Source: Clavaria fumosa (Eukaryota; Basidiomycota; Agaricomycetes; Agaricales; Clavariaceae). From it: 64,000 bases of DNA. Below the pieces are notes generated by a model. That model searched no databases. It saw only the letters and a program-made list of their open reading frames with translations, and was not told the DNA's origin. Where the stretch lies: NCBI GenBank assembly GCA_951802425.1, contig OX637795.1:868001-932000 (forward strand), given 5' to 3'. The translations under genes and the position numbers were made by a program. This document shows, piece by piece, positions 8,601-64,000 of the stretch (the stretch's first letter is position 1; every line of letters begins with the position of its first letter).

Positions 8601-9713
8601 AAAATGATTCCAGCAATTGAATTGCTCTCCTGAATGGCAGTAAATCCCAATGCCCTTCATTGTCAACCTGTAGTATCTTGGGCCAATGCACAGAATGCCT
8701 TTGGAACTCATTCCAGTCTTGTTCAACACTCTCCTTCTCTACCATTGCTTCAGATGCATGTCTAAATATGCCTTCTGGAATGTTGTCATGGTGGAGGAAG
8801 GCAAACACCTGCAACACAAGCATTGCACAAGATGCTGCTTGTGCATTGTCACTTCCACTTGTTGACAAAGCCCTGGCTTGAATCTCTTTCATGGAGAGTT
8901 CCCATGTCCCATAAACTGCTTGACCATAAGCAGATGCTCCTTTGAAAGAAGGATCATCCAATAGCTCATGGTGATGCTTCTGATAGATCCCAAGATATTC
9001 ATCAAGTTCACATAGACCACTTGCAATGGATGCACCAGCTTGATCCACAGCAAGAGGCAAGCAGCACAAAGTCTTCACAATAGGAAGGGCTGCATCCCTC
9101 AGTTCCGCAGAAATCACATCACAGAAGGCAGCACTCAGAAGGAGTGAGACTGCCTCCTGATTCCCCAACTCTCCAACTTCAGTCCAAGATTCAGAACCAA
9201 CAATCCGCCGCATGCTAGGATTACGGCTAGTGATCAGGATGTTGCCCTGGCTATGTGTTGGCATGAACTGAAGGAGAATAGCAGGATCTCCTGCATTATC
9301 ATACACTAGCAACCATTCCTGTGCGAGAAAAGATATCCATTCGAGGACTGAATGCATCGAGTCTTGAACTCCAGATGCTTGTGCAGCCGAATCATTTGCA
9401 ATGTTACGAATGGACTGCTGAGTTGTTTCAGCATTGGTCGCATCTATCCAGAAGACACGCCAGAACCTGTGGGGGTTGGTCAACAATGTAATAGCTAGAC
9501 AAGATTGATGGCTCCGACGAACAGCTCTGGGTTTTTCTCAATGAATCTGAGACAAATTTGAGTCTTGCCAACACCTCCCATTCCATAAAGAAGAAAGAGC
9601 CTTCTCGAGTGCGGTTGACCTGGGCGCATACTGAAATGGGTACGCAACCTCTCGAGGTAGCCCTCACGTCCGGTGAAATTTAGGCTAAAGGGGGGCATTC
9701 GCTTGTATGTCAT
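5644..9713 (-). CDS. NB-ARC/TPR receptor (fungal NLR-like protein)
   Basis: STAND-type NTPase, about 1337 residues, likely a cytosolic signal-transducing switch of the NLR class. The chosen start at 9713 precedes an FTGRE motif that usually opens the NB-ARC domain. The Walker A loop GMGGVGKTQ lies at residues 44-52, Walker B (WLLVYDNA) near 115-122, an ITSR motif follows, and LPLAVDQAG matches the GLPLA box. An intron is inferred at 9467-9522 (56 nt, GTTCGT...CAG); it restores E-L-F-W-R and removes a stop. The C-terminal two thirds is a kinesin-light-chain-type TPR array: 20 complete 42-residue repeats plus a partial one, nearly identical. No N-terminal effector domain is visible; an upstream exon cannot be excluded. 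The stop falls mid-repeat, so the last TPR is truncated. Confidence 0.85.
5645..8290 (-). repeat. 126-bp coding tandem repeat (TPR array)
   Basis: About 20.5 copies of a 126-bp unit, one per 42-residue TPR. The bases are almost invariant between copies except at a few codons: the two before Thr-Tyr-Ser, the residue before Gln-Gly-Lys-Tyr, the residue after Glu-Glu-Leu, and the residue after Met-Glu-Ala. Because no stop occurs in the complementary frame of the unit, the opposite strand is also open for about 900 codons; that is a by-product. Confidence 0.95.
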
Positions 9714-24038: not shown

Positions 24039-26886
24039 TTAAGGCTGGGCGTCTCGACCAGCTAATTTTGCTTTGTCGGGGTGTTGCTGAAAGAAGTCCT
24101 GGAGCAACAGTGTAACGTTAGTGAGGTTGCGATGGGGCTCCCAAGTGTTCTCCTCCACTGGGTATCCCAACCACTTCACCAAATACTTCACTCCCCATCC
24201 AACCTTCTTGACGTCAAGAATTGCCTCCACATCATACTCCAAGTGGTCGTCGTCAATCATGGGGGGTGGGGGTGGAGGCAAGTTCTGGGAAGGGAAAGAG
24301 GGGGCAACATATGGAGAGAGTAGCAGCTCATTGAAAACTCGGTGAATGCGCCATGCTTGAGGGAGCTTGAGCCGGTACGCAGCTGGTCTGACCTTTTCTT
24401 CAATGGTGAAGGGTCCTGCGCATTTGTTATCAAGCTTCTTGGAGGGTCGATCCATTTTCAGGTTCCGAGTGTCCAGCCAGACTAAGTCCCCCTTTGAGTA
24501 TTCACGACTCAGGCGCTTTCCCTTATCATAGCTGGCCTTCATCGCATCTGCTGCTTTCCCCATTGCTTCCCTGGCTGCTCTTTGAGACTCTGTGAGCTTG
24601 GCCATCCACTCATCTGCTGCAGGGTTCACTTCCGAGGGTGGCTGAATTCCACCGTTCCATGGGTGCCAGCCATACTCTAGGTAGAAAGGTGTGAATCTGG
24701 TGGCCGAGTGCTCGTGGTTATTGAGTGCGAACTCGGCTGTGGATAGCCACTCTGCCCAATCGTCCTGCAGATGGTCAACATAGGCCCGGAGATACACTTC
24801 AACCTCCCGATTGACCCTTTCTGTCTGTCCATCTGTTTGTGGGTGGAAGGCAGTGCTCGGGTTTGCCTTAACCCCAATCATCCTGTAGAACTCCCTCATG
24901 AATCTGGACACGAATTGGGTTCCCCGGTCACTCACAACTTTCTGCGAGACTCCATGGTCGCGGAAGACCTGGTCTTGAAGGATCTGAGCAGCACCAAGTC
25001 CCGTGAGGTCAAGGCCAATAGCTTTGATGAGAGTTCATTTTGTAAACTTGTCGACAATGACAAGGATCACATTGTGACCACGTGAGAGGGGGAAAGGCCC
25101 AACAATGTCCCAAGAGATGACTGCCCAGGGGCTCTCAGGGACAGGGTGTGGATGGAGAGGAGCAGCACACCTGGTATGATCAGGCTTGATTCGTTGGCAT
25201 GTCTCGCATCCACCTGCATACCAATTGGAATCCTTCACCATGCCCACCCACCAGTAGGACCTCAACAGAGCCACCCTCAGCTTCCGTGGACCAGGGTGCC
25301 CTGCGATGGGGAGGTCATGCTCAAAGGTGAGCACTGCCTCACATGCTTCTGGGGGCACCCATGTGATTTCTGCCTTCCGCCAGAGTCCCATCCAATCTCT
25401 CGTCCACCCATCATCAAGCTCCTCTGGCTTCTGCTCATATACCATGCTGTTTTTCTGGAGTAGCATCTCCATCTCTGATGTGAATGATGTCTGGGTCTCA
25501 GCCTCTGGGAAGACCTGTACTGGTGCATCCTCCTCCACCATCTCTCCATAATCTGGCCTCCGTGAGAGTGCATCAGCTTTCGTGTTTGACTTCCCAGTAC
25601 AGTACTTGATCTTGAAGTCAAAGCACTGGAGCTCTCCAACCCAATGGACTTGCCTTGGTTTCAACTTCTGGGGCTTCCGGAAGTACTGGAGGTTAGCATG
25701 GTCCGTCCAGATTTCAATAGTCTCTTCCACCCCAATCAGGTAAGCCTGCCACTCACATAGTGCCTGGATTACAGCCAGGAACTCCTTGTCGTACACGTCA
25801 TAATTCTTCTCAGCTGCAGTGAGGGCTTTGGAGATATAGTCTACAACTCTCCAAGTCCCATCCACCTGCTGCTGCAAGAGAACTCCTCCAGTCGCCAAGT
25901 TGCTCGTGTCCGTTTCTACTTTCCATCTCCCTTTGTCTTGTGGTAGAGCCAAGACTGGGGCCAACACTAGTGCCAGGCAGAGATCTCAGAAGGCTGCTTC
26001 TTCCTCCTCCTCCCATCTCCATGGGACCTTGCCTGTCAGCTGGAAGAGTGGCTTTGCCTGGGCTGAGAGGTTCGGGATGTGCCAGCGGAGGTAGTTCAGC
26101 ATCCTGTTGAATCTTTGTACCTCTTTCACATTCTTTGGTCTGGGCCAGTTATGGATTGCCGTGCCTTTAGCTGGGTCATGCTCCAGATGGTTGTGGGAGA
26201 TCTTCATCCCCAGGAAGAAGACCTCACTCTTCTCGAACTCGCACTTGCTGAGTCTGAGACACAGCCCATTCTCCCCAAATTTCCTCAAGACCTGATCCAT
26301 CCAATACCAGTGGGTAGCCAAATCCTCTGCAAACACTATAACATCATTGACATAGGCTCAGACATGCCCCCCTGCAATCTCTTCCCTCAACACATGGTTC
26401 ATGAAGCGCTGGAAGGTTGCAGGCGCATTCTGCAGCCCAAACCACATAACTGCTGGTTCGAGGCATTAGGAAAGCACAGCGGTGCTGATGTTCTGGCCAG
26501 ACCTGCATCAATGGGAAGCCTCCCTTCGCATCAATCTTGGAATAGATGGTTGCCCCCTTTAACACATCCACGGTGTCTCGGACGAGGGGGAGGGGGTACT
26601 TGTCTTTGATTAGATGCAAGTTCAGCCTAGAGTAATCAATAATCGGCCGCAGCTTGTCCTTCTTGTGTTTGAAGAAGAAGGGGCTTGCATACAGGGACTT
26701 TGAAGGTCGGATTCGTCCAGAAGCTAGCTGTTCATCCACCCAGTGATTCATCTCCACCATCTCTTCTTGCGTTAGAGAGTATAGCTTAGAGGAGAGGTGT
26801 CCAGGGTCTGTTTTAAACTCGATTTTGATATCAAAGTCAGGGTGGAAGCAGAGAAGCTCATCCCACTTTGCTTCACTAAAAACCAA
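24039..26886 (-). pseudogene. Chromovirus pol: RT, RNase H, integrase, chromodomain
   Basis: Starting near 26886, RT motifs are present (LYASPFFFKHKKDKLRPIID), then a frameshift. A TGA at 26360-26358 precedes the active site, which reads YVNDVIVF instead of YVDDVIVF (Asp to Asn codon at 26348-26346). RNase H (ETDTSNLATGG, TDHANLQYF) and the integrase zinc finger follow at 25967-25035, ended by TGA at 25037-25035. Integrase core (SDRGTQFVS, a Glu in QTDGQTERVNR) and a C-terminal chromodomain (KYLVKWLGYPVEENTWEP) are open at 24935-24039. The RT cannot be active. Confidence 0.9.
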
Positions 26887-26988
26887 AGGGTAGCGGCTGG
26901 GCCAATCAGGGGTAGGGCCAGTGTTGGGAAAGCAAGTGTCCGGGATACTGGCTGAGGCCAGGGTACTCGCTTTCGGTGGAACTGAGGG

Positions 26989-28652
26989 TCAGGCAGGGGG
27001 CCGGTGGCTGTGTGGGGAGGAGGCACAGGTGTTGGGGCAGCAGGTGAGCCTTACTTCAGCTTTCACCCAGTCAATCTCTGGGTTATGACGCTTTAGCCAA
27101 TCATGCCCAAGGATCACCATGTGGGACTGGGTCTTCCCTAGCAGGAAGTGGATCTGCTCCTGGTGGTCGCCAACTGTCACAAGCAGCTCCATCCCATACT
27201 GGATCTTACCATCCCTGTTCTGTGTTCCATCCACATTATACATGGTGATTGGATTCAGCAAGGGAGATGGTTCCAGTCCCACCTTTTTTGCCCACTCCAA
27301 GTCCATAAAGCAGTTGGTGCAGCCTGAGTCGACAAGGGCTTTCGTAGTTGCCCCTTTGCCAGTGCTGAGAGCCTCCAGGTGCACCTGGATGGAGAGCTCT
27401 CGGGGCATATGCAATAGGGTGTCCTTCAGCACCTCTGCAAGGTGCTTTGTCGGCTCCACTTGGCTGCTAGTCCCCTTTTCTCTTTTCGGTATTTCACTCT
27501 TAGTGGTTTCCGTTTCCGCTTTGTCCTTCACCTCAGCCCCAATCCAGGTGTGTCTCCGCTGCAAGATAATGTATTTTGGGATACTAGCTGTGGGTACAGG
27601 GATGGGAGGGGGGCTGGGATATCTACTCCTGAGACTCCAGTTCAGACTCACTGGGCCTTGTCTCCAAAATCTGGCTCCTCAACAGGAGCCCTCTTCCCTC
27701 TCTCGAGCAAATCCAGGTGGTCTCGGAGCAGTGCGATCTCGTTCTCATAGTCCTCTGCACTATGTGCCTGGCTTTCCACAGCGTGGACCTGCGGCCTCGG
27801 GATCTGCAGACGTGTGTCCTGGAGCTGGCAATCTCTCACCATGTGACCAGCTTGGCCACATCAGAAGCAGGTGTGCAACACTCCAGGGGCACGGGCACGA
27901 TCCACCATCATGGCATCACCAGCATTGGTGGGACACGGCATGGTGGGAGGGGCAGGGGTGCGGGCCAGAGGCTGGGCCAGGAAGGGGCAGGGGGCTGGGG
28001 CAAAGCGGGTTTGTTGAGGGAGGGGGCAGCTGGTTGCAGGCGGAGCAGGACGCACAGAGTTCTGCTGTGCGATGACTCCATTGAGGCAACGCTGCTGAGC
28101 ATCTAGCCTTTCGGCGAGTGCCTTCCACTGCACGTAGGTCTCTGGCATTGGCGAAACACCATAGACCTTTCCCACTAGCCTCCTGCTCAGGTTCGACTCC
28201 AGCCAATGGACCAGGATGTCCGAATCGGCCACTTCTGTCATCCCCGCTCTTCAGAACATCGTTTCGAACTTTGCGAAGAACTCAGGTGCTGTCATGACAC
28301 CCTGTTTCAACCTCGCAATGTCTGTGAGGGCAGTCGCACAGTCATTTGGGTCATCAAACGCTCGCTTCATCTCTTCCACAAATTCTGCCCAGGTTCCAAC
28401 CTCATTGTTACCAAGGATTTCCTCTCCCTTCATATTTGCCCATTCTGCGGCAAACCCCTTGCCAGTAATTTTGCTGAGGGTGTAGAGGACCTTTGCCAGG
28501 TCCGTGGCATAGATTATCGGATTCGCCATAAACAGGAGGTGGAGCGACTGGAGGAATGTACAGAAATTTCTTTTTTGCCCATTGAATGGGGCGACAACTA
28601 AATCCAGCCTCATGGCATGGACTTCAGGCAGGGCAACGTGGTCAGCCATCAC
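26989..28652 (-). pseudogene. Chromovirus gag and aspartic protease
   Basis: Gag starts near 28652 and shows the capsid pattern (PFNGQKRNFCTFLQSL, WAEFVEEMKRAF). A CCHC knuckle follows near 27870-27830, in which a TGA codon at 27863-27861 sits between the first two Cys (C-F-stop-C-GQAGHMVRDC). Downstream, 27651-26989 is open and contains the protease site ALVDSGCTNCFMD and an ILGHDWL motif. The capsid part has at least one further frame break near 28250. Confidence 0.85.
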
Positions 28653-29865: not shown

Positions 29866-30450
29866 CTTGCTGGTTCAGTATCTGATCTTGAAGATGAAAC
29901 ACTGGAGTTCTCCATACCAATGTATCTGTTGGGGCTTGAGTTTTTTGAGGTTTCCAGAACTAGGACCAGAAGTACTGCAAGTTTACCCAAATTTCAAAAA
30001 GTTTCCTCCACTCTGATGTAGTGTTGCCACAGCTTAGGCTAGAAGCCAGCTTGAAGCTGTAGCCAAGCTGCAGCTACAGGCGGAGTCAGCTTGGCTACAG
30101 CTTCAGCTTGGACAAAATGGCATCAGCTTCAGCTTAAGCTGGCAGCTAGCTGCAGCTTGATCCAGCTCAAGCTGTAGCCAAGCTACAGCTCAGGCTTGGC
30201 TACAGCTTCAGCTTGACCAAAAAGAGCATCAGCTTCTCAAGCTGGCTAACAGCTAGCCAAGCTGTGGCAACACTACTCTGATGAGATACACTCTCCATTC
30301 TCTAAGGGCCTGAATGACTGCAAGGAACTCATTGACATTGTAGTTCTTCTCAGGGCTTTGGAGATATAGTCTACAAGTCCCACCAGCCTGCTGCTGGGAG
30401 AGTACTCCACCTGTGGCAAGATCACTCATGTCTGTCTCTACTTTCCCATA
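29866..30450 (-). pseudogene. Old chromovirus relic, right part (RT/RNase H)
   Basis: Minus-strand RNase H remnant that aligns with 25590-25930 of the younger element (for example the complement of TTGATCTTGAAG...ACTGGAG and of GGCTTTGGAGATATAGTCTA). It is the continuation of the relic at 21362-22890, separated from it by the Tc1 element. A 257-bp MITE interrupts it at 30019-30275. Confidence 0.75.
30019..30275. mobile_element. hAT-type MITE with 8-bp target duplication
   Basis: A 257-bp non-coding element with terminal inverted repeats TAGTGTTGCCACAGCTT / AAGCTGTGGCAACACTA and flanking direct repeats CTCTGATG (30011-30018 and 30276-30283). An 8-bp duplication and TAGTG-type ends fit the hAT superfamily. 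The interior is built from repeated AGCTTGGCTACAGCTTCAGC-like blocks, so almost every few bases contain AGCT. Confidence 0.85.
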
Positions 30451-30903: not shown

Positions 30904-31411
30904 TTATGATCTCCGTCCCTCTCTGCAAGTATCGTTGCTCATCATTTTGATCGCCATAGCAGGAGGTGAGATTTCGCTAGCTCCCAATCCTAAGGCTCTT
31001 TCCTCTGCATTGTTCATCGTAATAGCATCTTGGATGTGACTTAGAACACGCTTATCGGATTCCTTTTGCTCACGGCTATTTCCTTCTTCAATGCTGTAAC
31101 CTCGTGCTAATGCATGGAAAAGGCTCAAAGATGATGGACGTGTCAACACTCAAGAGTTCCTCCCTAACATAAGCATCCACGGAAACGTATTCTCGAATCA
31201 AAGTTATCAGAGGGTTGAATCCAAAAACCTGGAACGCAGAGCTCAATATGTATCCGGATATGAGCTCCAGTTCTTTCTCACTCTTGTTTTGTTTTGTCTG
31301 ACATCGATTCTTGACAAATAGTGTAATAATATATGAACGCCCTGTGATTCCGATGCCTTCACAACACTGCCTCCAACTTGCGAGCTTGGCAGCCCAGGAG
31401 TCCACGTTCAT
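30904..31411 (-). pseudogene. Unidentified coding remnant next to the peptide precursor gene
   Basis: Two overlapping minus-strand frames (31411-31088 and 31149-30904) look like one former coding region joined by a one-base frameshift near 31110. The first part contains GYILSSAFQVFGFNPLITLI and a predicted helical segment; the second contains HALARGYSIEEGN and ends in a basic tail. I do not recognise it. Part of its 5' end belongs to the direct repeats described at 31311. Confidence 0.3.
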
Positions 31412-31590
31412 CGCTTTGACGCTCCTCTCACGAGCCGGAGCGAGTCTACGCTACAACTCAAGTGACAAGTGTGAAGACCTCACCTCTGGAACGACGGTTA
31501 CACGTTTTGATAAACTCCCTACCTTCTTTTGGGTTTATCACACATCGGGGTGACTTTGTTAAGCTGATAACGCGGAATTTTCATTTAACA
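31311..31590. repeat. Direct repeat R1 flanking the precursor gene
   Basis: About 260-280 bp that recur as R2 (31597-31828) and, in shorter diverged form, as R3 (about 32395-32520). Shared stretches include CCTTCACAACACTGCCTCC, GAGCGAGTCTACGCTACAAC and GGAACGACGGTTACACGTTT. R1 and R2 lie upstream of the MSDIN-type gene, R3 downstream. Confidence 0.8.
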
Positions 31591-31596
31591 TGAATG

Positions 31597-31828
31597 TATG
31601 AGCGCTCTGTGATTCTGGTGCCTTCACAACACTGCCTCCGACTTGCGAGCTTGGCAGCCCAGGACCAAGTCCACGTTCGTCGCTGCGCTCCTCTCACGGG
31701 CCGGAGCGAGTCTACGCTACAACTCAGGTGACAACTGTGAAGACTTCATCTCTGGAACGACGGTTACACGTTTCGACAAACCCCTACCTTCTGACTTTGT
31801 TAAGCTGATAATGCGGAATTTTCTGTGA
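31597..31828. repeat. Direct repeat R2 upstream of the precursor gene
   Basis: Second copy of the repeat at 31311-31590; ends about 20 bases before the CCAAT box of the precursor gene. Confidence 0.8.
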
Positions 31829-31960: not shown

Positions 31961-32126
31961 ATGTTCGACACCAACGACACCCGTGTTCCTAACTGGGCTG
32001 GCTTTTTTGGCTGGCCTTGCAGCCCTGATACTGCCGGTGATACTCTCAACCGTGGCAAAGAGTGAGTCCAATGTCCATATACTACCGTCATGGCGTACTC
32101 ATGTGTCTTGCATTAGCCTTTGCTGA
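31961..32126 (+). CDS. MSDIN-family cyclic-peptide precursor (RiPP)
   Basis: Encodes a 36-residue precursor in two coding exons, 31961-32061 and 32117-32126, with a 55-nt GTGAGT...TAG intron that breaks the third codon from the end. The layout matches the MSDIN family of Agaricales: a ten-residue leader MFDTNDTRVP ending in Pro, a nine-residue core (32 bases in: Asn, two Trp, Ala, two Gly, two Phe, ending in Pro), then a follower that starts with Cys and ends Leu-Cys-stop. In this family a prolyl oligopeptidase cuts after both prolines and joins the core ends. The core has no Cys, so a Trp-Cys bridge as in amatoxins and phallotoxins is impossible; a monocyclic, cycloamanide-like product is expected. 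The leader resembles the Galerina type. Product and activity are unknown. Confidence 0.85.
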
Positions 32127-32332
32127 ACATCCTCTGTATCTCGGTCTGCCACTACGTTGCAGGCAGGTGTCATCGTCTCACCTCAACGTTTTTCGGGCTT
32201 GACTTGTATCTGAGGTCAGTGCTTGGGTCTCTTCGTAATGCTACAGGAAAGGCTGACTCGCTTGCCGGTTCTCCCCTTCATTTAGACCCTCCTGTTCTTT
32301 CTGTCTGGTTTTGTCTGATATCGATTCTTGAT

Positions 32333-32386
32333 GTGAATGTACCTTGTTCCGTGAATGTACCTTGTTCCGTGAATGTACCTTGTTCC
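32333..32386. repeat. 18-bp minisatellite, three units
   Basis: GTGAATGTACCTTGTTCC occurs three times without change at 32333, 32351 and 32369, about 200 bases after the precursor gene's stop, possibly within its 3' UTR. Confidence 0.95.
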
Positions 32387-32394
32387 GTGTTGAT

Positions 32395-32520
32395 GTTGGG
32401 GATGAATGCTCTGTGATTCCAATACCTTCACAACACTGCCTCTGACTCTGTTCATCGCTTCGATGCTTCTCTCATGGGCTAGAGCAAGTCTATGTTACAA
32501 CTCAGCCCTCAGCAGTGCAC
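32395..32520. repeat. Direct repeat R3, partial, downstream of the precursor gene
   Basis: Shorter and more diverged copy (ATGAATGCTCTGTGATTCC, CCTTCACAACACTGCCTC, GAGCAAGTCTATGTTACAAC). Sequence before it (GTTTTGTCTGATATCGATTC near 32310) also matches the flank of R1 near 31295, so the shared segment is larger than R3 itself. Confidence 0.7.
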
Positions 32521-33009
32521 TATCTGGGTGAACAGTTGCAAGGCCTCTGCTAGTACACAAAATGGGAGGTTGGGATCACTTGTCCTATGACCTTGGTGTT
32601 TGTCAGCCTGCTCTTCTATGTTGGATATTCAAACCCATGCCTATCTGTATGTTCTTCTTTCTTTCAGATACAGTGACTCAAAAAACTGTCCAGATGTTTT
32701 GTGCTTTTGGATTATTTCAGCAATATCTCAATAACAGGTCAAGATGTAGACATGTAAAACACACCATCTGATAGCCCTACTTCTTGGCTATATATCCATT
32801 TGTTCAGCTTTAATATAAGTTTGGTTTAATCTGAGGTATTTGGCCTTGTTTGTGGGTGTGTCATCCGGACAGTTTTTTTGCAGGCATCAAAAAGTAGAAT
32901 AATTGAATGAATTTGTTGAATGGATATCCCAATAAACAAAATAATGCTCCCAGACCACCTTCTAGTATATAAGGAGGGCCTTCCTTCACTTTCCTCCAAC
33001 TTTCCCACC

Positions 33010-33350
33010 ATGAAGCAGCTCCCTACTAAGGGTAAGGCATCCATCATCTCTATGGTGGGAAATGGTGATTCCTGTCACAAATTTGCTGTTAGGCTTTGTG
33101 TCAGCCACTATACTGTCTCTGGACTGTGCTATCAGACTTCTAGGACTCTTCCTGAAAGTGATTTGGTCACTTTTGACCCCCAGTTGCTATAATTCAGTAC
33201 AGCTTATCACCACAAACAAGGCTGAGGTAGCTTCCCACCTCCAAAATAAGCTTAGAAACCAAAGGGAGAGTATGTAAAACTGAGCTACAGTATGCCTAGA
33301 AGTGTTTTAAAAGTGTTGGGAGTTATGCAAAGTACAAAATTACTTGTTGT
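33010..33350 (+). pseudogene. Deleted Tc1 transposase in left arm
   Basis: Starts MKQLPTKGKASIISMVGNGD, the first helix-turn-helix of a Tc1 transposase, continues after a stop with LITTNKAEVASHLQNKLRNQ (start of the second helix-turn-helix), then jumps to YSMPRSVLKVL, which is the C-terminus. The entire DDE catalytic core is deleted. Confidence 0.7.
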
Positions 33351-33586
33351 TTACTTACAGTGACTCAAAAAATGGTACAGATGTTTCATGTTTTCAGATT
33401 ATGTCAGCAATATCTCATTAATGACTAAATGAGGAAACATATAAAATGCTTCATCTGATAGCCCTCCTGCTCAGCTATCTGTCCATATATTTAGCATCAA
33501 CACAAGTCCAGCATAAGCTAAGATATTTGCATTTGCTTGTGAGGGTGTCATCCTGACAGTCATTTGCAGACATTCAAAGTAGGTAA

Positions 33587-33927
33587 ACAACAAGTAATTT
33601 TGTACTTTGCATAACTCCCAACACTTTTAAAACACTGCTAGGCATACTGTAGCTCAGTTTTACATACTCTCCCTTTGGTTTCTAAGCTTATTTTGGAGGT
33701 GGGAAGCTACCTCAGCCTTGTTTGTGGTGATAAGCTGTACTGAATTATAGCAACTGGGGGTCAAAAGTGACCAAATCACTTTCAGGAAGAGTCCTAGAAG
33801 TCTGATAGCACAGTCCAGAGACAGTATAGTGGCTGACACAAAGCCTAACAGCAAATTTGTGACAGGAATCACCATTTCCCACCATAGAGATGATGGATGC
33901 CTTACCCTTAGTAGGGAGCTGCTTCAT
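33587..33927 (-). pseudogene. Deleted Tc1 transposase in right arm
   Basis: Mirror copy of the remnant at 33010-33350, same deletion of the catalytic core. Only a handful of substitutions separate the arms. Confidence 0.7.
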
Positions 33928-34540
33928 GGTGGGAAAGTTGGAGGAAAGTGAAGGAAGGCCCTCCTTATATACTAGAAGGTGGTCTGGGAGCATTATTTTG
34001 TTTATTGGGATATCCATTCAACAAATTCATTCAATTATTCTACTTTTTGATGCCTGCAAAAAAACTGTCCGGATGACACACCCACAAACAAGGCCAAATA
34101 TCTCAGATTAAACCAAACATATATTAAAGCTGAACAAATAGATATATAGCCAAGAAGTAGGGCTATCAGATGGTGTGTTTTACATGTCTGCATCTTGACC
34201 TGTTATTGAGATATTGCTGAAATAATCCAAAAGCACAAAACATCTGGACAGTTTTTTGAGTCACTGTACCACTTCTTGGTCCCTTTTCTATGAGGGACCA
34301 TTCTGGACAAAAATGCAAAAGTTCATGTGCATTTCATATGCACACATGTGTTCATTGATTTGCATATGCTCTCACTAATGCACACTTCTACTTACATTAT
34401 TTCAGATATGCATGTATATGCAAGTGTGCACAGAGTCAAACAGTGCATGTCTATGTGCACTTGTGTGCACAGTCTTATACATCTATGCACAGTTCTCTCA
34501 GCTAAAATGTCTGCATTATGCTGCATCATTGTGCAGCACA

Positions 34541-34845
34541 ATGCAATGTGCATTATTGTTGTTTTCAGCACACTTGGCAAGCTGCACAAAGCACACAAAT
34601 GTACAATAATTTAGAAGATGAATATGAGGTAAGACTTATATAGACAACCTTATAGTATATCATTAGGGTTACACAGCCACATTTTTGCATTGCAAAATAT
34701 GTTATATTAGGGGAGATATAGGTGAATCTTCATTGTCTATATAAGTTCTACCTCATATTCATCTTCCAAATTATCATAAATTTGTGTATTTGGTGCAGTC
34801 CACCAAGTGCACTGAAAACAGCAATAATACCACAGCCAACCAGCC
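34541..34845. mobile_element. Fold-back MITE
   Basis: Imperfect inverted repeats of about 110 bp: left arm about 34541-34648 (includes GAAGATGAATATGAGGTAAG, CTTATATAGACAA), right arm about 34733-34845 (TTGTCTATATAAGTTCTACC, CTCATATTCATCTTC). No coding capacity. Ends and target duplication are not clear. Confidence 0.6.
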
Positions 34846-35374
34846 AGTACCATATTTTCATTTTCTGGTTTCAGCTAAGAATCTAAGATTAAGATGTTTT
34901 GAACAATTTAATCATGCCCTAGCCACCTGGGCCAACATGAACCCTGTTTGATAGCATTGATCCTGGCTAAAACTAACAACTGGTAAAGGTCCAGTCTGAA
35001 TATCATGGCACATCTTCAATGAAGAATTTATTTTAACACCTTGGAAATCAATTATAATAGAATTATCAGCAGCTGGGCAACATATGTGATCTTGGCCAAG
35101 CCTGGGCCAAAATGCTAAATGTGTACCAGTGTACTTCTTGGGTGGCATGACGTTAGCATCCTTTTGGTGTGTCGGATGTACACCAAACATGTTGAACAGG
35201 TTTGTCTGGATCAGTGTTTATGTTATGTATGACCCCACATTCTCGGACGACGTCTTAGTCAAGATGTGATATCAGTTTGTGGCAATTTATTGCAAGCCAA
35301 GAAAAACCTGTCAGCTATCCGACATATAGACGAGTTGCGTCTAAAAGTTCAGTGAGTACACAGCCAGAGCCTAA
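34846..35374. other. Intergenic between MITE and oligopeptidase
   Basis: A minus-strand frame at 35190-34912 (92 codons) is open but has no motif I recognise. Otherwise 3' flank of the prolyl oligopeptidase. Confidence 0.3.
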
Positions 35375-38300
35375 TCATTTGGTTTCCACTCGAAGTTTCA
35401 GGGATTGTGCAACAAATCCCCACTTATCAACAGCATCTTTGATGCTGGACAACAATTAGCAATAGAATGATATGAAGAGCGAGTATAACTTGCTGTCTGT
35501 CGGTTGATTTGCCATAACCATGACCAAGCCAATTTTTGTCAATGCGAAGTAGTAGCGGGTTTGGATTCTGAGGCAAATTGTGCTGAAGGGTGGCAATGAA
35601 CTTGAGGGAATGCATTGGAACAACACGGTCATCAGCTGAGGATAGCCTTGCATCAAGTACGGATAAATATCGGCTTGGGAGGACAGCTCACCTGCGTTGA
35701 TCATGACTATTGTAGCCGGCAAAATCTTATCTGTCGGTACGTTATGTATGGGAGACAATGGATAGATGAAGTCAAATTCTTCAGGAAGGCGAGGATCTCC
35801 ATATTCACTTGTCCAAGCTTTCCCTGATTATGGATTTTCAATCCAACTAACCATGGAAATACAATCAATAACAAACCTCCTGTGTATCTGTAGAACTGGG
35901 GAACAGCAGTCAGAGAAACCAAACATATTGAAGGATAATCTAACTACCTTAAGGAGATCTGCGACGCCACCCTCAGAAACGGCAGCACCGAAAGTCCCTT
36001 GTGGTGCCCGAAGTATGGAAGCACTGACAACAAGTCCTATTTTGACATTGTAAGGTGAGCATCAAGGTGGAGATGGAGTGGAAATCTGACCGCCGTTGGA
36101 TGCACCGCTAATAGCCACTTTGTTCGGGGCTGCGTAATTGTTCTTGACAAGGAATTGACTTGGAGCAAAAGTCCTCAGTGAGCCTGCGAAACCACGATAA
36201 TTGCTAAATGGCGGACATACGCTGCGGCAATGAAGTCGTCGAAACTATTTTTCTATTTGAAAGCTAACTTATTGCACAGGGAGTCACAATCCTTGGTTAC
36301 GGACCTTATTTTCTCGTCTTCCGCCCCGGTGCCACTCCTCACCAAATTCTCCTCCGCCTCTGATGGCTGGAACAGCGAGGATTGCGCCATAAATTTGAAG
36401 AAACGTGAGGGTGATTGGACTGAAGAATGGATCCGCTGAGATGGCAAATCCACCATAACCTGCGACCAAAAAAAGCGGTTGTTAGATACGCCCTCATATT
36501 CACTGTTATAAACCGGAGATGGGTTACCGAACTGAATTGCAGGCGCCGTTCCATTAAATTCAGTTGATTTGTGCCGAACAATGAACATTGGAATCTTGGT
36601 GCCATCGTAGCTCTCATACCAGACTTGTGATGACTCAAAATCATCTGTGTTCAATCCATTGAGCTTCGTCGTGCGAAGGATGCTGAAACGCTGCGCCTCT
36701 GGGGCTGTGAAGTCATAGCGAGCGATGGTGCCTGGTACGTTAAACCCGGATAACGCAATAAAAAAATGGGACTGTTTCTCTCTATTTGTTATTGACGCGG
36801 TGCCGACAAAATCCTGGGCTAAACAAGCAAGCTGGATGCCTGCCTTGGAGATGAGGTATATCTCATCCTTTGCCTAAAGGGTCATATTAATACCAAAATA
36901 AGCATTAGAAATGAACTGTTTGGAATGATTACATTGCGCTTGTAGATAGTGACAAAATATCCATTATTGACGCAGTTGACTTGAACGAGCTTCGCGTCTT
37001 TCACTTCCGGGATAAAGTCACGAATTTCGGGCTCATGGTTCGATAGGTCGATAGTGATGACCTTGTGTTGGGGTGCATTCAGGTTGGTCTTGACATACAG
37101 CAGTGATCCGTGGTTCGTTATTCTGTACAAATACAAATCAGAAAATCGAGATGTGAAGGGGAGGGGAGACGTCTCACACGCTGTAGTCGGCCATATACTG
37201 GTTGATGACTTTTCGCCACTGTATCCCTGGCTTGATCGCGCCCTCGTCGAGCTCCGCAACCCACATGAGATTTTGCTGGTGAGTATGAGGGTCATTCGAA
37301 CATTGCAATAAGAATATGGATCCTTGCCTTCGAGGTATCCTTGTACAAATACAAGTAAAGATATTTGCCATCCTCGGAAGTATTTGTTCCGAATACCCAC
37401 TCTGGGTTTTCTTTGTCTCGATGCACGGTGATATCTTCCGCTGGTATAACTGAGTTAGTTTCATGAAAGCCGAAGGACAATATCATCCCGACACTGAGGT
37501 GTCCCGACCCGATGGTAACATATCATGGCATCTCTGTCACCGTGTATTTCGACATGAATATCGCGAGCAGGATAGCGCTGCAAAGCTTATAAATCATGGG
37601 ATTGGATGATCAGGAGTTGCGCCATACTTGATACAGAAGACCTTTGGAGTCCTTCGTCCACGTTATGGATGAGAACTTGAACCACTTCACTTCATCCGGA
37701 AAACGGCCGTCTTCACCCCCTGCTGCCACTGGTGGAGACAATGGAGATCTCGTTGAGCGAACGTAGATCGTTGCGTAATCTCCTCCCTATGTAGCTGTAT
37801 CAAACAACGACAACATATGCACATTAGAACATTACCCACCAAATGAGATATCGCGTATGCAAAGTGCTTGCCACAGGGTGAAAAACGACAAGTGACCATG
37901 ACTGCACCACCATCGGCAGCAAGGACGTTCGGCTTTCAGGAGCGAATTTAGAGAGATCTTGTGGATGTGGTGAAATTCTTTACATCAAAGAAGACATCGC
38001 CAACATCGTTGTCATCCTTTGAGAAATCAGGAAGTGCAGGTTCCTTGGAGCGGTAAAGGACTGCAGATTCTACAGTTTGAGCTTCTGGCACGATAGAGAT
38101 AGGTTAATAAATACCAGATTGCGGTTGCAGGCCACTATTGTAGAACCAATACCAGTGTCCGTCATCAAGTAGAGTAGGCGCGGAGAACTACAAGGTAATA
38201 GCTTTGAGTACGACCCGCACGTCCCGCGCAATCCGCGATAAGGGCTCACCTTGGCGTAATTCATACATGTACGGAACTTGTCCTCAAGCATTTGCCTATC

Positions 38301-38504
38301 GGTGTTCTGATCAAGGTACGCTTGGGTGAAACTCGCCTGAGATGTCGTCCAGTTGTCTACCTCATCAGAGGTCCCTTCCAACCATTGGTACGGGTCTGGT
38401 ACATGTACTTCTCCCTTTGACGCACTCTTGTAGAGATCAACGTGGCCTGAACGGCGTGTGGGGGGGTAGTTGCCAAGAGTCCACTGTGTAGGTGACATTG
38501 CCAA
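35375..38504 (-). CDS. Prolyl oligopeptidase, probable peptide macrocyclase (POPB-like)
   Basis: S9A serine peptidase, about 730 residues, read as 18 exons that stay in frame throughout. In MSDIN pathways the dedicated enzyme (POPB) cleaves the precursor at prolines and cyclises the core; housekeeping POPA does not. The N-terminus ([24 protein letters not shown]) is typical of the family, the beta-propeller follows, and the alpha/beta-hydrolase part has GASNGG with the catalytic Ser (codon 36100-36098), DDRVVPMHS with the Asp near 35630, and GHGYGK with the His (codon 35522-35520). Stop TGA is at 35377-35375. Two introns appear to use GC donors (after TSK near 37328, and near the last exon at 35500). 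Two Met codons lie 6 bases apart at the start. Assignment to POPB rather than POPA rests mainly on the neighbouring precursor gene. Confidence 0.85.
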
Positions 38505-39087: not shown

Positions 39088-42000
39088 ATGACCTCCCCTC
39101 TCTCTCTTCATGAGATGTTCTTGGTTCTCCTCCGAGTGGTTGGCGAGCAATACGAGCTCTTCCGCAAAGTGGAGGGTGCTAACCCTCAGTCTCTCTTGCA
39201 CTACAAGTTGCTCAATGAAGCGCTCAAAGACGACTTAGCGCTCTACAAGACTCTATTGGAAGAATTTGTCCAACTTGGCAGCGGCGAGACACTCTTCAAG
39301 CTGCTTTACACTGTTTACGCGTCTACAGCCTACGACAACTTGAAGCAGACACTCAACAATACGAGTGAACTTTTGGAGAAGTTCAACAACATGGTTGCAG
39401 GCAGTAAGCGTCAATCTTCCGCGCTAAAACTGTAGGCGCAGTGTTGATGGTTTCGATATCATAAGCCAACGCAATCACGGAGGATATCGACATTATTGCC
39501 AATTGCACTGTCCGTTTGAAGGATGCCCAGGATATGATCGGACGAGCGTTCAAGGCCTTCCACACGCTTTACCTATACCATGATATAAATGCTTCGATAA
39601 GCATACCCCAGACCGCGCAGAACACCCGTGGCCACCCCAAAGCCTTCGACGTGATCACTTCGGCTTTTTATCAGCGCCCATTTGGAATCTCTGCCGCCGG
39701 CGAAGGTACTGTCTCAGTAGATTTATTTTACAAGTTCAACAAGCGCCGGGAGGCCGCAGAAAAGCACGCAAAGGTGATGGCTGGTATCGGCAGGGCCTGG
39801 GTTAAAACCCAACTACTGGAAGGGGAAGATGTACGGTCGCTTGGGCATCTGCAAACCCGCTTGATGGAACTTCTCTGGAGTTGCAGTATTGAACAGCTCA
39901 AAGAACAGACAGATCTCTATCTAGCTGGTGACGACAGCGGAAAGGCTGACATTGTGGCCGAAGTACAGGCACTTGAGGAAACTTTAAAGCATTCAATCGG
40001 GAGAGCCAAGACGGAGAGGTTCTCTATTGCGTTCTGTGGCATGGTCAAAGCAGGGTACGTCGCTCATTTTCAGGTGTCCTTCATCCTCTCCTTCTGAAAC
40101 TCTGAGTAGTAAATCCCTCTTCATCAATTCTCTCATGGGTTGCACCATTCTTCCCTCCGATGGTAAGATAAAGGCTTCATTCGCATGGTCACCTCCTAAA
40201 TGTGTGCAGAGTTGCCCTCCACTGCCTGGCCCTGCCGTTTGCGCCACACCAAAGGCCAAACGGTGCCGAAGTTGACGTTCGACCCCGCGCCGTTCCGTCA
40301 AGGCTTGTTGAAACTGCAAGAGCATAGATACGGATACGAAATGCAAAATTATAAACCACCGAAGGATGACCCGTTCGACAGCATCTTTGCGGAGCTTGAT
40401 TTGGACGATGACCCAAGCGAGAGCAGCACGAGCGACGGCAAAGACCTTGCATTCATATTTCAATCCTGGGCTGGCCTACATCAAAATACGCGACAAAATT
40501 TATTGAAGTTTGAAGACCCTAGATTCGAGCTGCATACTCAAGCTGAAGGGGAAAATGCTGTCAGCCAATTGGTCGGTCGAGGGCTCTTTTCCATACGTTG
40601 CTTCTCCCTTCTATACTCATTTTTGACGAAAATGCAGCTCAGTGAGCTAAATGATATTGTCAGGCTCTGCCATCGCTTTCGCCTTGGTTTCAGAATGGAA
40701 GGGGTCGAGTGGCCTCTGCTCACGGTGGAATTTGACTCATTCCGAGATCAAGAGACAGACGGAATATTTGAGGTCTGTCTGTTATGTATTGGAGTAGCCT
40801 ATTAATAACAAGCGTAATAGTTTATAGATCTCCCGGTACGCAGGATAATGGAAAATTCATTGTCTCACTAATTTATCCGTTCGCTTAGGGCCTTGGGGAA
40901 GGTTTCGAAGATGTGCGGTCTTTATGTTGTCCCAAAATACGTGAAAATTGACATTCCCTGTAGTTTGATTTCGAGGATCTCATCCGACAGGTGGCGAAGG
41001 AGACACACGCGATAGTACCTATCGTCAATTTCAAAGAAATCCCGAAAGAAGACTGGAAACGCTTGCCACAGATCATATCATCTGGCCTCGAGTTGCGCAC
41101 AGACCTAGTTATTTGCACCCACCTAGATCAGGTGAGGTCCCTGTCATCATTTCCTCGCAGTCCAATGCCAATGTTAGCACCTTGCATCATGATTTGGGAC
41201 GTAGATATCAAAGGAGAACCTCCCAGAGCAATTTTTCAATGTGGCGAAGGTGTTCTTCCCGACGAACACGGGTTCAACGGACCGCATCATGGCATGCTCT
41301 TCGCTCATGGGTCTGAGCGCCTATATACTGCTGCGTAAATCCAGCCATGACATGCCGGATCTCGCAAGTTTCTGGGATCGTAAGAAAATCGAGTACCACG
41401 TGAGTCGATATGAGGACAATTCCGCCTTATTCCTGTGAAAATAACTCCCGTTCGCAGTGTGCGGAGAAGATTCTAGGGACAGGAACCACGGATAGGACCT
41501 ATGCACTGTACAATCTCGAACTATGGCAGAAGGCTGTTGGCAAAGAACTCACGGACAGTGGTTTACCGAATGTATGGCAACGACTCCGCAGAGATGTGGT
41601 TACCAGCGCCAGGCAACGGCTTCTGATGCTTGAAGCCCATCTGTTGTGGAAACATATGCACAAGATTGTAATTGAACAAACGTGAGAGCCAGGCCTTCAA
41701 CCTTTATCCCATGTGGGTTTAACGATGCGCTAACCTCAGCCGCGTCCTGCTCGAGATGCGCCGCACCATGGACGAATTCGAACAAGCAAGGCGGGATTAC
41801 CTGTTGGCTCGTCGTGACTTTGTTAGTCTACTCATCAAGTGGGAAGAGCAAGAAGCACAGAGAGATCGAGTCTATGCAAGCAAGTTACAACGTAGCATTG
41901 AGGTCCTGAATAGGCTTGGTGCCGAAGCCGTGACCAAGGCGTTGACAAGCACAATTGCGGATTTACCAAACGTATGTTTTTTTCAGGCTATTTACCACTC

Positions 42001-46345: not shown

Positions 46346-49300
46346 CTATACAAACCGGTTCAAATGCTCCTTGAGTGTCTGCAACGCCGCTTCGGCAGCT
46401 ACAAAGTTAGACTGGGCAGCCACAAACTCCGCGATGTGTTTGGTCTTGGGTGGTTTGTGCTTCTCCGCTCGCTCTTTAGTATAACGATCATCCTCTCTCT
46501 GCAGCGCACTCTCGACTGCGTCTTTGGCGATCTCGGCGCTCTTCTTCATCGTCTGATGCAGTGTCTTCTCGCCTTCAGTAATGAGATCGTTCAAAAAGGG
46601 CTGTACAATCTTCTCTGCATAGCGTTTGCCGATTTCCTCCGGGGAGAGATGGTACCTCGTAGACTGTCCCATAGCACGTCAGTAAAGGGGGTGTGATAAA
46701 GAAGGCAGCAACTTGCCTGGGTGAGCATGGGCCACACCATGACACCAAGCACGAAAGGAACGGCGGCGATCAGCGCAATAGGCGCACGGAGCATAAACCC
46801 GAGCTCTTCAACGGCCTTGTGTTTGTCTTCTTCGTCAGAATCATAGTCGTCTCTCAGCTTGATCAAAGGATGGGCAAGAAATGCCTCCATGCCGCGCCAT
46901 ACCGCTTTCGGTCCATATCTGCCAGGGAAGATTGGAAAGATGAAAAGGTAATATTTGACGGTCAAAACCCACTTCTTGTTTGAAGTCTTAATGCCTTTCT
47001 TGATCTTGCGAAAGGCGAGACTTTGGACGCTGAATGAATTGGCGTCAAGATCGATCAAGATCTCTTCTTGAAGCGCAGGCTGAGCCGCCTCATCCAGTGA
47101 CTTGATTTCCTTCTTCAGACTTTCGAAACGCTCCAGCCTCGCTTGGTCCGCCAGCTTCCGGATGGTCGTGACGAACTGTCGTCTTAGTCCCGCTAACGAG
47201 TGAGCCAGCTTCAGCTGACTGTTGTGGAAAAATACTTCGGCGGCTGCCTTGGAATCGACAATGACGATTTCGGGACCTTCTTGCCGCTCCGCAAATGACT
47301 TGAAGGCGTTTGGGTTAGAAGTTAGCGAAGTAAACAAAGAGCTCATACCTTGTCAGTCGTGTCACTAGCCGTCTTGAGCGCGTCATACTGGTTTAATGCT
47401 GTAGTTGAATTCGCAGGCCTCGAATTGAGATTAGGGGTTAGAGGAGGGTAATCATGCTCCGGAGGCAAACGAGATAATGGTGAGTTCGAGCGTGGCGTGG
47501 CCTACGAATGACGGGCATGTTAAGAACGATTGCATTGTTTGACTAACTTGAAGGATACTTACTGCCTCTAGTTCGGCGATCGCCTTATCCAATGCGTTAG
47601 TCACAGCTTCGGTGCCAAGTGTAGTCAGAACCGCAAGACTGCGACGCAGTTTTTCTTTGTAGGACTGATCCCTCTTCGCTTCTTCCTTTTCCCATGTCCT
47701 GAGTGCGTCGACAAATTTGCGACGTGCCAACTGGTACTCGTGTTCCGCTTGTTCGAGATCGGCCACGGAGCGGCGCATCTCGAGAAGGATGCGCCTAAAA
47801 ACGGTACACTGATTAGTCCATGCGGGATCAGATTGGAAGATCTGCCTCACTTTTGGCTATTCATGATCTTATAGACATGCTTCCACAGCTGATGCCCTTC
47901 AAGGATCAGAAGGCGTTGCCTAGCCTTGGCAACCATGTCTGTGCTGAGTCGCTTCCGCACATCTGGCAACCCACTAAGCAAAAGCTCTTTCTTGATGGCT
48001 TTCCTCCACATCTCGAGATCGAACAATTTGTAGTTGGTCCCCGTGTTTCCAATCCCCAAAATCTTTTCCGCGCACTGCGAGCGAGGATGACTTTCGAGGC
48101 AGCGGGTGGACGGATGAACAACGTCGACTCACGCGATACTCGATTTTCTTAGGATCCCAAAAACTCGCAAGACTTGGCATAACGCGCTGGGATTTACGCA
48201 GCAGGGTATAGGCGCTCAGGCCCATGAGCGAAGAAACCGGCAGGATGCGGTCCGTCGACCCCGGACTTGTCGGCCAGAACACCTTCGCCACGTTTATACA
48301 CTGTTCTGGCAGGTTCTCCGCAGATATCTACATCCCAAGTCACAGCGTAGGACGATGGTGTTAGCCAGAAAATGAAATCAAAGCTTGAGGGGTATCACCT
48401 GATCGAAATGAGTGCATATAACTAGGTCCGTGCGTACGTCAATGCCGGATGATATGATCTTTGGCAAACGCTTCCAGTCTTCCTTCGGAATTTCTTTGAA
48501 GTTGATAATGGGCACGATCGTGTGTGTTTCTTTCGCCACGCGCCGGATGAGATCCTCGAAATCAAACTAGAGACAAGGTCAGTGACAGCATACTTTGAAA
48601 CCAACACATGATGACTGTACGTCTTCGAAACCCTCTCCAAGGCCCTGCAATGGACAAATAAAAGAATCAGTTGGAAAGAGAACTTCAAGTTACTCCATAT
48701 CCTACATACCGGAAGATCTATGAACTTGATGCATGTCAATGGAAATGAGCTACATTCTACAGACGTAGACAGACCTCGAATATGCCCTCTATCTCCTGAT
48801 CTCTGAATGAATCAAACTCGACCGTGAGCAGCGGCCATTCAACTCCTTCCATTTTGAAACCAAGACGGAAGCGATGGCAGAGCCTGACAATGTCGTTGAG
48901 CTCGCTGAGCTGCATTTCCATTAAAGAAACAGATCCGAGATGTATAAGAGAAGTAGAAATGGCGACGGGGACTCGGACTGACCAGTTGCCTCACATATTC
49001 TTCTCCTTCAGCTTGAGTACGCAACTCAAATTCAGGATCTTCGAACTTTAGCAAGTTCTGTCGCGTGTTCTGATGCAGGTCGCCCCAGGACTGAAATATA
49101 ACTGCCAAGTCTATACCGTTGCTCGAACTGTTCCCGTTGCTGCCATTAGTCGCGCCACCCGATTCAGGCTCCGCAAAGATGCTTTCGAACGGGTCATCTT
49201 TGGGTGGTTTGTACGTTAGCATTTCGTGCCCGAATCTGCGTTCCTGCAGTTTCTTTAGGCCTTCACGAAACGGCGAGGGGTCGAATTCCAATTTCGGCAT

Positions 49301-50477
49301 AGTCTGGCCCTTACTGTGTCGCAGACGACAAGGCCAAGCAGTGGATGGCAATTCTATGTAAAATGTTTGGAGGATGTCTAAAAAAATGAGGCCTTTTTTC
49401 TGCTTACCGTCGGAGGGAAGGATGGTGCGACCCATGAGAGAATTGAGGAAAAGAGATTTCCTGCACAGAGTATCAGGGCGAGAACAAAGATAGAGTCAAG
49501 TGAGCGACCCACCCTGCTTTGACCATGCCACCGAATGCGATAGAGAACTTCTGTATTTTTGCTCTCGTGATCGAATGCTTCAAGATTTCCTCAAGCGCTC
49601 GGACTTCATCCAGGATGTCAGCCTTCCCAGTGTCGCCAGCCGTATACTGCTCTGTTGTTTCAACTTTGAGCTGTTCGACACTGGAACTCCAGAGCAATTC
49701 CATCAAGCGTGTCTGCATGAGCCCGAGCCTATGGACACTTTCCCCCTCCATAAGTTGGTCTTTAATCCATGCCCTGCCGATCTCAGCCATTTCCTTTGCA
49801 TGTTTTTCTGCAGCTTCCTGATGCTTGTTGAGCCGACAGAGCAAGTTGGTCGAGACGGCGCCTTCGCCGGTGGCACGGATCCCAAATGGGCGCCGATAAA
49901 ATGACGAAGTGACTGCATCCAAAGCTCTGAGGTATCCATGAACGTTTGGCGATGGATGAGGCATGCTTATCGAAGCCGGCGCGTCGTGGAAAAGGTACAG
50001 TGTATGGAAAAACTTGAATGCTCGCGCGATCGATTCTTGGGCATGCTTCAGCTGGTCTGCGCAATCGGCGATGAAGTCGATATCGGTCTGGATTGTATTT
50101 CCTTGGACCATTGAAGCCATCAAGACTCCACCTGCGGTTGTGGGGGCGGGCGATCGAGGTTCCTTGTCAGCAACAACTTTGTTGAGCTCTCTCAACATCT
50201 CGTCCGTTTTCTCCAGCGTCTGTTTGAGATTTTCGAAAGCCGTTGCGCCGTTATCAGTATCAAGCAGCTTGTTGAGTGTCTCGCCGTTCCCTTGATACAA
50301 CAAAGTCTCAAAGAGAGCCTTGTAGAGCGCCAAATCATCTCTGAGCGCTTCGTTGACGAGCTTGTAATGCCAGAGAGACCGACGCCGGGCACCTTGCACC
50401 TTTTGGAAGAGCTCGTACTGCTCGGTGATCGCATAACCAAGAATAAAGAGTGTGTGCAAAATAGAAACAGGATCCAT
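46346..50477 (-). CDS. Dynamin-like large GTPase, copy B
   Basis: Paralog of copy A in inverted orientation. Start at 50477 (MDPVSILHTLF) is chosen because it aligns with the start of copy A; the frame is open 15 codons further up. G1 GMVKAG-KS is again split by an intron near 49490-49440, followed by LNSLMGRTILPSDG; G2 is LPSTAWPCRL; G3 comes from micro-exons 48724-48710 (15 nt) and 48644-48621 (24 nt); G4 is THFDQ near 48415. A hydrophobic segment (FMLRAPIALIAAVPF) near 46800 is the likely membrane-inserting paddle. All key motifs are intact and I see no nonsense codon. Whether the two copies still share a role cannot be told from sequence. Confidence 0.75.
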
Positions 50478-50937
50478 GTGGTCTGCAGGAGAGTTGGCGA
50501 AGCGCCAATGGACAGTCATCACCTTGCCATATTGCTCAGAATAGTAACCAGGGTAGGTTGTCTAGAGCGTGATACAAACCGAGGCCGACGCCGACTCTGC
50601 AGATGCAAGATTTGGCTCATGGCGGCGCCGTTACGTTGCCGTCTGAGGTAAACAGTCAAGAGGCACCAGGAATGACCAAAAGTCAGCCTGTGCTCGTCAA
50701 ATGCAAATGTTCGAGGCAAAGAAGGTGAATTACATAATGCTGTGGTATTTTACACAGCCACTTTTTGACTCACGTGAGCATCAGTCAGGTGATTGCGAAT
50801 GCGGTCAAGCTGCCAGCGTTCTGACAGCCAGAATGGAAGTAACTTTATGGAAGCCAGCCACTTTGTCCGTTCAACCGCCTTGATTCGAAACGAGATGAGT
50901 TACGAGGATTTACCTACAGGTGGTTTAACTGAGTGAA
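50478..50937. other. Upstream flank of dynamin-like copy B
   Basis: No coding feature recognised. Probable promoter region of copy B. Confidence 0.35.
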
Positions 50938-58909: not shown

Positions 58910-59075
58910 TTTTTTTTTTTTTTTTTTTTTTTTTTTGAATCAGCATTTGTATCCCGCAACATGTGGCTAAGACAAAGACGCGGTTGTACGTGATGTACGT
59001 AAGGTGATTAAGTGGTAGGGTTATGTGGGGTTGGGAGGCGTATTGGGGGGGTTTGGTGGTTGGACTTTCTTTTGT

Positions 59076-63982: not shown

Positions 63983-64000
63983 TACATATCTGATGGAGCG

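Follow-up and report, generated by a model that had tools for sequence, protein, structure and literature searches.

How did the cyclic-peptide genes of the death-cap family become scattered over distantly related mushrooms? This open question is touched by a 64,000-nucleotide stretch of DNA from Clavaria fumosa (Agaricales, Clavariineae), here called the window (assembly GCA_951802425.1, 48.76 Mb in 17 contigs; contig OX637795.1, positions 868,001 to 932,000 of the forward strand, or C2:868001-932000 in the contig labels used below), in which a precursor gene of the MSDIN type lies close to the gene of a prolyl oligopeptidase (POP) of the POPB type. The precursor and the enzyme have been published before: Drott et al. 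2023 (PMC10356791) report from C. fumosa a POPB and a single MSDIN with the same 36 residues, and the finding of the pair is therefore no discovery. Apart from that paper, no report joining C. fumosa with MSDIN was found. Its main text appears to give for this species neither the distance between MSDIN and POPB, nor the gene structure, nor a statement on an intact POPA, the generic POP, and the linkage may stand in the supplement. The additions made here are the close linkage of the two genes, the finding of no other intact POP, and evidence against vertical descent. We consider it very probable that the two genes are an MSDIN precursor and a POPB that together make cyclo-(NWAGFFGWP), and that the POPB lineage arose from a generic POP near those of the Tricholomatineae and was horizontally transferred.

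Precursor and oligopeptidase genes

The predicted precursor is MFDTNDTRVP / NWAGFFGWP / CSPDTAGDTLNRGKDLC, with 36 residues encoded by two exons (31961-32126, forward strand). It is composed of a leader of 10 residues ending in Pro, a core of nine residues also ending in Pro, and a follower of 17 residues that starts with Cys and ends with Leu-Cys. This agrees with the MSDIN layout, a ten-residue leader and a core of 6-10 residues that each close with Pro (PMC5648786, PMC5159998). The Asp codon, which is the fourth-last when the stop is counted, is split by an intron of 55 nucleotides; in cDNA-confirmed MSDIN genes the intron interrupts this same codon, its length is 52-58 bp in the species studied, and the products mostly end with Leu-Cys (Pulman et al. 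2016, PMC5159998). All 36 residues are identical to those of the C. fumosa entry in PMC10356791. The first-pass annotation of the window had proposed this same two-exon gene, with its MFDTN...Pro leader, nine-residue core, Cys-initiated follower, Leu-Cys end and 55-nucleotide intron, and the structure was reproduced; the MSDIN type that it assigned is supported by the letter-for-letter match to the published precursor. An MFDTN leader is also printed for Galerina sulciceps (PMC7318481).

Calculated from base composition, the leader pattern is expected by chance 0.0002 times per window and 0.16 times per whole genome, both strands included. The latter figure, taken alone, leaves some room for a chance short frame next to a prolyl oligopeptidase of the ordinary housekeeping kind, but this explanation has next to no probability: given the leader together with the follower, the position of the intron, the second Pro, the exact match to the published precursor, and a neighbouring POP that falls in the POPB clade and carries Trp695 (see below), chance is no serious account of the locus. 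The full leader pattern without mismatch occurs once in the genome. With at most one mismatch it was found at nine places (three for the control pattern), and none of the eight outside the window, all of which were read, was MSDIN-like. The short leader pattern with at most two mismatches was found at 45 places (70 for the control pattern); five of these were read, namely the window's own and four that were not MSDIN-like. Such pattern searches are blind to precursors with a different leader. Three of the eight matches outside the window lie on contig C5, in near-identical frames resembling by eye antisense WD40 repeats.

The oligopeptidase gene has its ATG at 38498 and its stop ending at 35375, and the frame is open through all 18 exons. 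Its 17 introns include 15 of the GT-AG and two of the GC-AG type; the splice sites were placed by eye, and a gap-free alignment to the Galerina POPB agrees with them. The count of 18 exons and 17 introns is the pattern of POPB genes, not the 19 and 18 of POPA genes (PMC6408872, PMC7318481). When solved structures were searched, the five Galerina POPB entries ranked first, aligned over residues 1-728 with 1,315-1,320 bits, and OphP of the omphalotin-type borosins (PDB 7zaz, 7zb0) came next with 578-579 bits. Also OphP is an S9A prolyl oligopeptidase and is listed with a role in the cyclisation of a fungal peptide, but the borosin precursor is the tail of a methyltransferase whereas the Clavaria precursor is a short peptide of its own. 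When aligned with 120 database relatives, the window POP keeps all of Tyr496, Ser577, Asp661, Arg663 and His698 (numbering of GmPOPB, the Galerina marginata enzyme), and the POPB-only insertion Trp695 is present, the other 114 rows being gapped at this position; the roles of these residues are taken from PMC5648786. An 18-exon S9A oligopeptidase with intact Ser, Asp and His in convergent orientation had been noticed in the first reading as well, with an end at 38504, six bases upstream of the ATG.

Phylogenetically, the window POP was found within an eight-row clade of POPBs (100/100 in a tested tree of 41 rows; Shimodaira-Hasegawa-like approximate likelihood ratio test, SH-aLRT, 100 in a quick tree of 82 rows), and in neither tree did it group with the generic POPs. 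The first-pass annotation had called for such a POPA/POPB tree and had named an enzyme among the POPAs, with a second POP elsewhere in the genome, as the outcome speaking against its claim; this was not what was found, and no second intact POP was detected in the assembly.

The two genes are convergent, tail to tail, with 3,248 bp from stop to stop, in agreement with the spacing of 3.2 kb first given. A linked pair of this kind is known from Galerina: in G. marginata, which has two precursor genes, POPB forms a cluster with one of them (PMC5648786, PMC5159998), and the neighbourhood of precursor and POPB in Galerina, which had at first been given as known, is described by Pulman et al. 2016 (PMC5159998). 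Linkage of MSDIN and POPB is reported also from a clone of Amanita bisporigera (PMC5159998).

Predicted peptide

GmPOPB alone carries out both steps of processing, first the release of the 10-residue leader and next a transpeptidation at the last Pro of the core (PMC5648786, PMC5159998). It is guided by the follower, the tail of which is lodged in the propeller (PMC5648786), and the terminal Cys of the follower is reported to be needed for cyclisation (PMC5159998). By homology, transcription and splicing of the Clavaria locus would lead to a 36-residue precursor, which the single POPB would cut after the leader Pro; the same enzyme would then link the two ends of the nine-residue core at its last Pro, releasing cyclo-(NWAGFFGWP). 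This cyclic nonapeptide, with a calculated monoisotopic mass of 1062.471 ([M+H]+ 1063.478, [M+Na]+ 1085.460), is the likely product. The first-pass annotation had described the pair as a complete minimal locus, and this description is supported: the pair fits the predicted cleavage and cyclisation of the backbone, and because the core lacks Cys, no Trp-Cys (tryptathionine) bridge would be expected.

The comparison with G. marginata shows both likenesses and differences. The 10-residue leader, the core ending in Pro and the 17-residue follower are common to both (PMC5648786, PMC5159998), and the two enzymes have 75% identity and share the catalytic residues and Trp695. The core of G. marginata has eight residues including Cys, whereas that of Clavaria has nine without Cys, and the residue following the core is Trp in the former and Cys in the latter. 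This last difference weighs against the prediction, since the Trp of the Galerina substrate occupies a pocket beside the active site (PMC5648786) and with Cys in its stead the mechanism of GmPOPB is less easily carried over. It would also suit genes that are real while the pathway is silent, or a precursor that is cut without cyclisation, no cyclic nonapeptide being formed in either case, and the two GC-AG introns among the 17 of the POP gene could be read in the same direction. Such an outcome is nevertheless very unlikely. All exons of the POP gene are open, its catalytic and POPB-specific residues are intact, GC-AG introns are reported from MSDIN genes of A. bisporigera (PMC5159998), and the follower ends with the Leu-Cys whose terminal Cys GmPOPB is reported to need.

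Descent of the POPB gene

In both trees the POPB clade branches inside the generic POPs of the Agaricales, beside those of the Tricholomatineae. In the 82-row tree, in which the generic POPs follow the mushroom suborders, the clade belongs to a group of 23 rows, 13 of them POPs of the Tricholomatineae (SH-aLRT 99), and its nearest neighbours are a Russula POP and an unnamed protein. In the 41-row tree, the strictly vertical placement, with 23 generic POPs of the Agaricales held together and POPB outside them, cost 98 log units and was rejected by the approximately unbiased test (p-AU 2.5e-6), and a 22-row version without Pleurotus gave a p-AU of 1e-4. This rejection favours horizontal transfer over an ancient origin with vertical descent. 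Also the grouping of the Galerina and Lepiota POPBs together, as the species tree asks, was rejected (p-AU 0.002); the Clavaria POPB grouped with Lepiota and a fragment from A. brunnescens (92/80, 41-row tree).

By sequence identity, the Clavaria POPB lies nearer to the Galerina enzyme (75.3%) and to the Lepiota enzyme (75.5%) than the latter two lie to one another (71.5%). Galerina has 76.0% identity with A. bisporigera and 77.1% with A. polypyramis, and for the generic POPs the values are 63.1% between Galerina and Lepiota and 65.0% between Galerina and A. bisporigera. On the evidence of the trees, the POPB lineage would descend from a generic POP close to the Tricholomatineae POPs, and its presence in Clavaria is probably due to horizontal transfer. 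Earlier authors have argued for transfer among Amanita, Galerina and Lepiota (PMC6408872, PMC7318481). In the species marker RPB2, C. fumosa was outside a 14-row clade of Tricholomatineae and Pleurotineae (SH-aLRT 83), at a poorly resolved fork, and the nearest taxon by path was Lyophyllum. The Russula dissimulans POP, which in both trees stood closest to the POPB clade, was far from the position expected for its order.

The same pair could also have been inherited vertically from the base of the Agaricales, MSDIN and POPB being ancient and lost in most mushrooms. In the view of Drott et al. 2023 (PMC10356791), the C. fumosa genes are in keeping with the species tree and may be ancient, and a topology with the Clavaria POPB sister to the seven remaining ones was not rejected (p-AU 0.075). 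Further points speak against the transfer. A clade of seven Tricholomatineae POPs beside POPB was not rejected either (p-AU 0.27); the 41 and 82 rows were drawn from 121 available ones, the window POP and the 120 nearest of 2,278 hits, and among these sampled relatives no other Clavariaceae were recognised; and the tested groups were named after the first tree had been seen, so that the p-values lean low. Vertical descent is, however, unlikely in view of the nesting of POPB beside the Tricholomatineae in both trees, the rejection of the strictly vertical placement, and the identities, by which the Clavaria POPB is no more distant from those of Galerina and Lepiota than these are from each other.

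If POPB was transferred, the linked precursor was probably transferred together with it, as the linkage in Clavaria, Galerina and the A. bisporigera clone fits a joint transfer of both genes. Against this stands Lepiota venenata. Its POPB has the highest identity to that of Clavaria and the same 18 exons and 17 introns, but its precursor and POPB are far apart and its core peptides are other ones, and its authors favour the transfer of single genes (PMC6408872).

Two further POP-like places, on contigs C10 and C11, were found when the genome was searched with the window POP and the Galerina POPA. The one at C11:1608945-1609978 is a relic of a generic POP, in which an N-terminal part is joined to a part starting from about residue 637; about 490 central residues are absent and with them most of the propeller and the nucleophile (the catalytic Ser). 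In a tree of 151 columns this relic was placed outside a 28-row Agaricales clade on a long branch, and neither its joining with POPB (p-AU 0.135) nor with POPB and the Tricholomatineae (p-AU 0.154) was rejected; as it fits several placements, nothing is drawn from it on the native POP. The other, C10:755431-769779, is a divergent paralogue spread across 14 kb, with approximately residues 281-463 lacking a tblastn match. Its parts are split by stretches lying between direct repeats of 148-291 nucleotides, by eye similar to long terminal repeats.

No other intact POP was found in the assembly by the protein searches with these two queries and by Pfam, the best candidates being scored. Both protein searches recovered the window gene exon by exon, with 14 of the 21 matches in one of them. 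Pfam PF02897 was detected in the window gene and on C11. For PF00326, 10 matches were listed on C5, C6, C8 and C10, the window POP not being among them, and numerous introns can thus hide a gene from a family search; the places on C5, C6 and C8 had no match in the protein searches. An intact generic POP may also be missing from the assembly itself. All known MSDIN producers carry two POPs according to Drott et al. 2023 (PMC10356791), and for L. venenata a third type of POP is reported where no POPA was found (PMC6408872). The generic POPA is intact in Galerina, whereas only apparently broken copies were found in Clavaria.

Genomic surroundings and the possible unit of transfer

The fold-back repeat between the two genes (Table 1) fills 1.6 kb of the 3.2-kb intergenic space. 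Its arm has at least 88 matching pieces in the genome, its own two arms included, and a copy with 99% identity is present on C6; as a member of a dispersed family with so similar a copy, the repeat is likely a young insertion. Beyond the two local copies upstream of the gene, a genome search with the 3' flank of the precursor found no match, and the copies are likely the trace of a local duplication. Three stretches considered as a second precursor upstream scored no better than shuffled sequences (276, 245 and 275 of 300 shuffles reached the score) and were rejected.

Table 1. Positions of the precursor gene, the oligopeptidase gene and nearby repeats in the window.
Feature	Position	Strand	Remarks
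MSDIN precursor, exon 1	31961..32061	+	leader MFDTNDTRVP, core NWAGFFGWP and most of the follower; product as the published C. fumosa MSDIN (PMC10356791)
Precursor intron	32062..32116	+	55 nucleotides, GT-AG; predicted splicing; position and length match cDNA-confirmed MSDIN genes (PMC5159998)
MSDIN precursor, exon 2	32117..32126	+	end of the Asp codon, then Leu-Cys-stop
POPB-type prolyl oligopeptidase	35375..38498	-	18 exons, 729 amino acids, intact
Fold-back repeat between precursor and POPB	32669..34268		695-nucleotide arms, 99% complementary, 210 nucleotides between
Partial copy of precursor 3' flank (32289-32505)	31265..31460	+	from sequence comparison
Second partial copy of precursor 3' flank	31598..31727	+	from sequence comparison

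A Pfam scan of eight of the 35 listed long frames of the window (one in part), weakened by introns, found no pathway-like tailoring enzyme; the matches were of the GST-type, FHA, TPR and, weakly, LRR. The TPR match was on the scanned part of a frame of 1,297 codons (5644-9537, reverse strand) that contains a tandem repeat of 126 bp in about 20 units with 94% matches. Beyond the POP gene, two copies of one protein, similar by eye, are present in opposite orientation (39465-40805, forward; 48839-50561, reverse), and 39465-40097 and 49473-50561 had no Pfam match. The long frames at 24039-28075 and 59008-64000 resemble by eye retroelement polyproteins, and a fragment of similar wording is found at 30253-30429, 1.5 kb before the precursor. 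Rfam at gathering thresholds gave no matches in the window.

On the strength of the C. fumosa pair, these peptides have been suggested to be of ancient origin. Transfer of a cassette is indicated instead by the linkage, by the position of POPB beside generic POPs of the Tricholomatineae, and by the apparent absence of any intact generic POP. According to this tentative scenario, to which we give somewhat less than an even chance, the early-branching lineage of Clavaria acquired horizontally a cassette of two genes, the POPB of which derived from a housekeeping peptidase of the Tricholomatineae type; the cassette kept its linkage and outlived the native POP, leaving the macrocyclase as the only intact POP. 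If this is true, the MSDIN peptides would be younger than the Agaricales, and transfer would have moved the cassette as a unit, not its genes singly.

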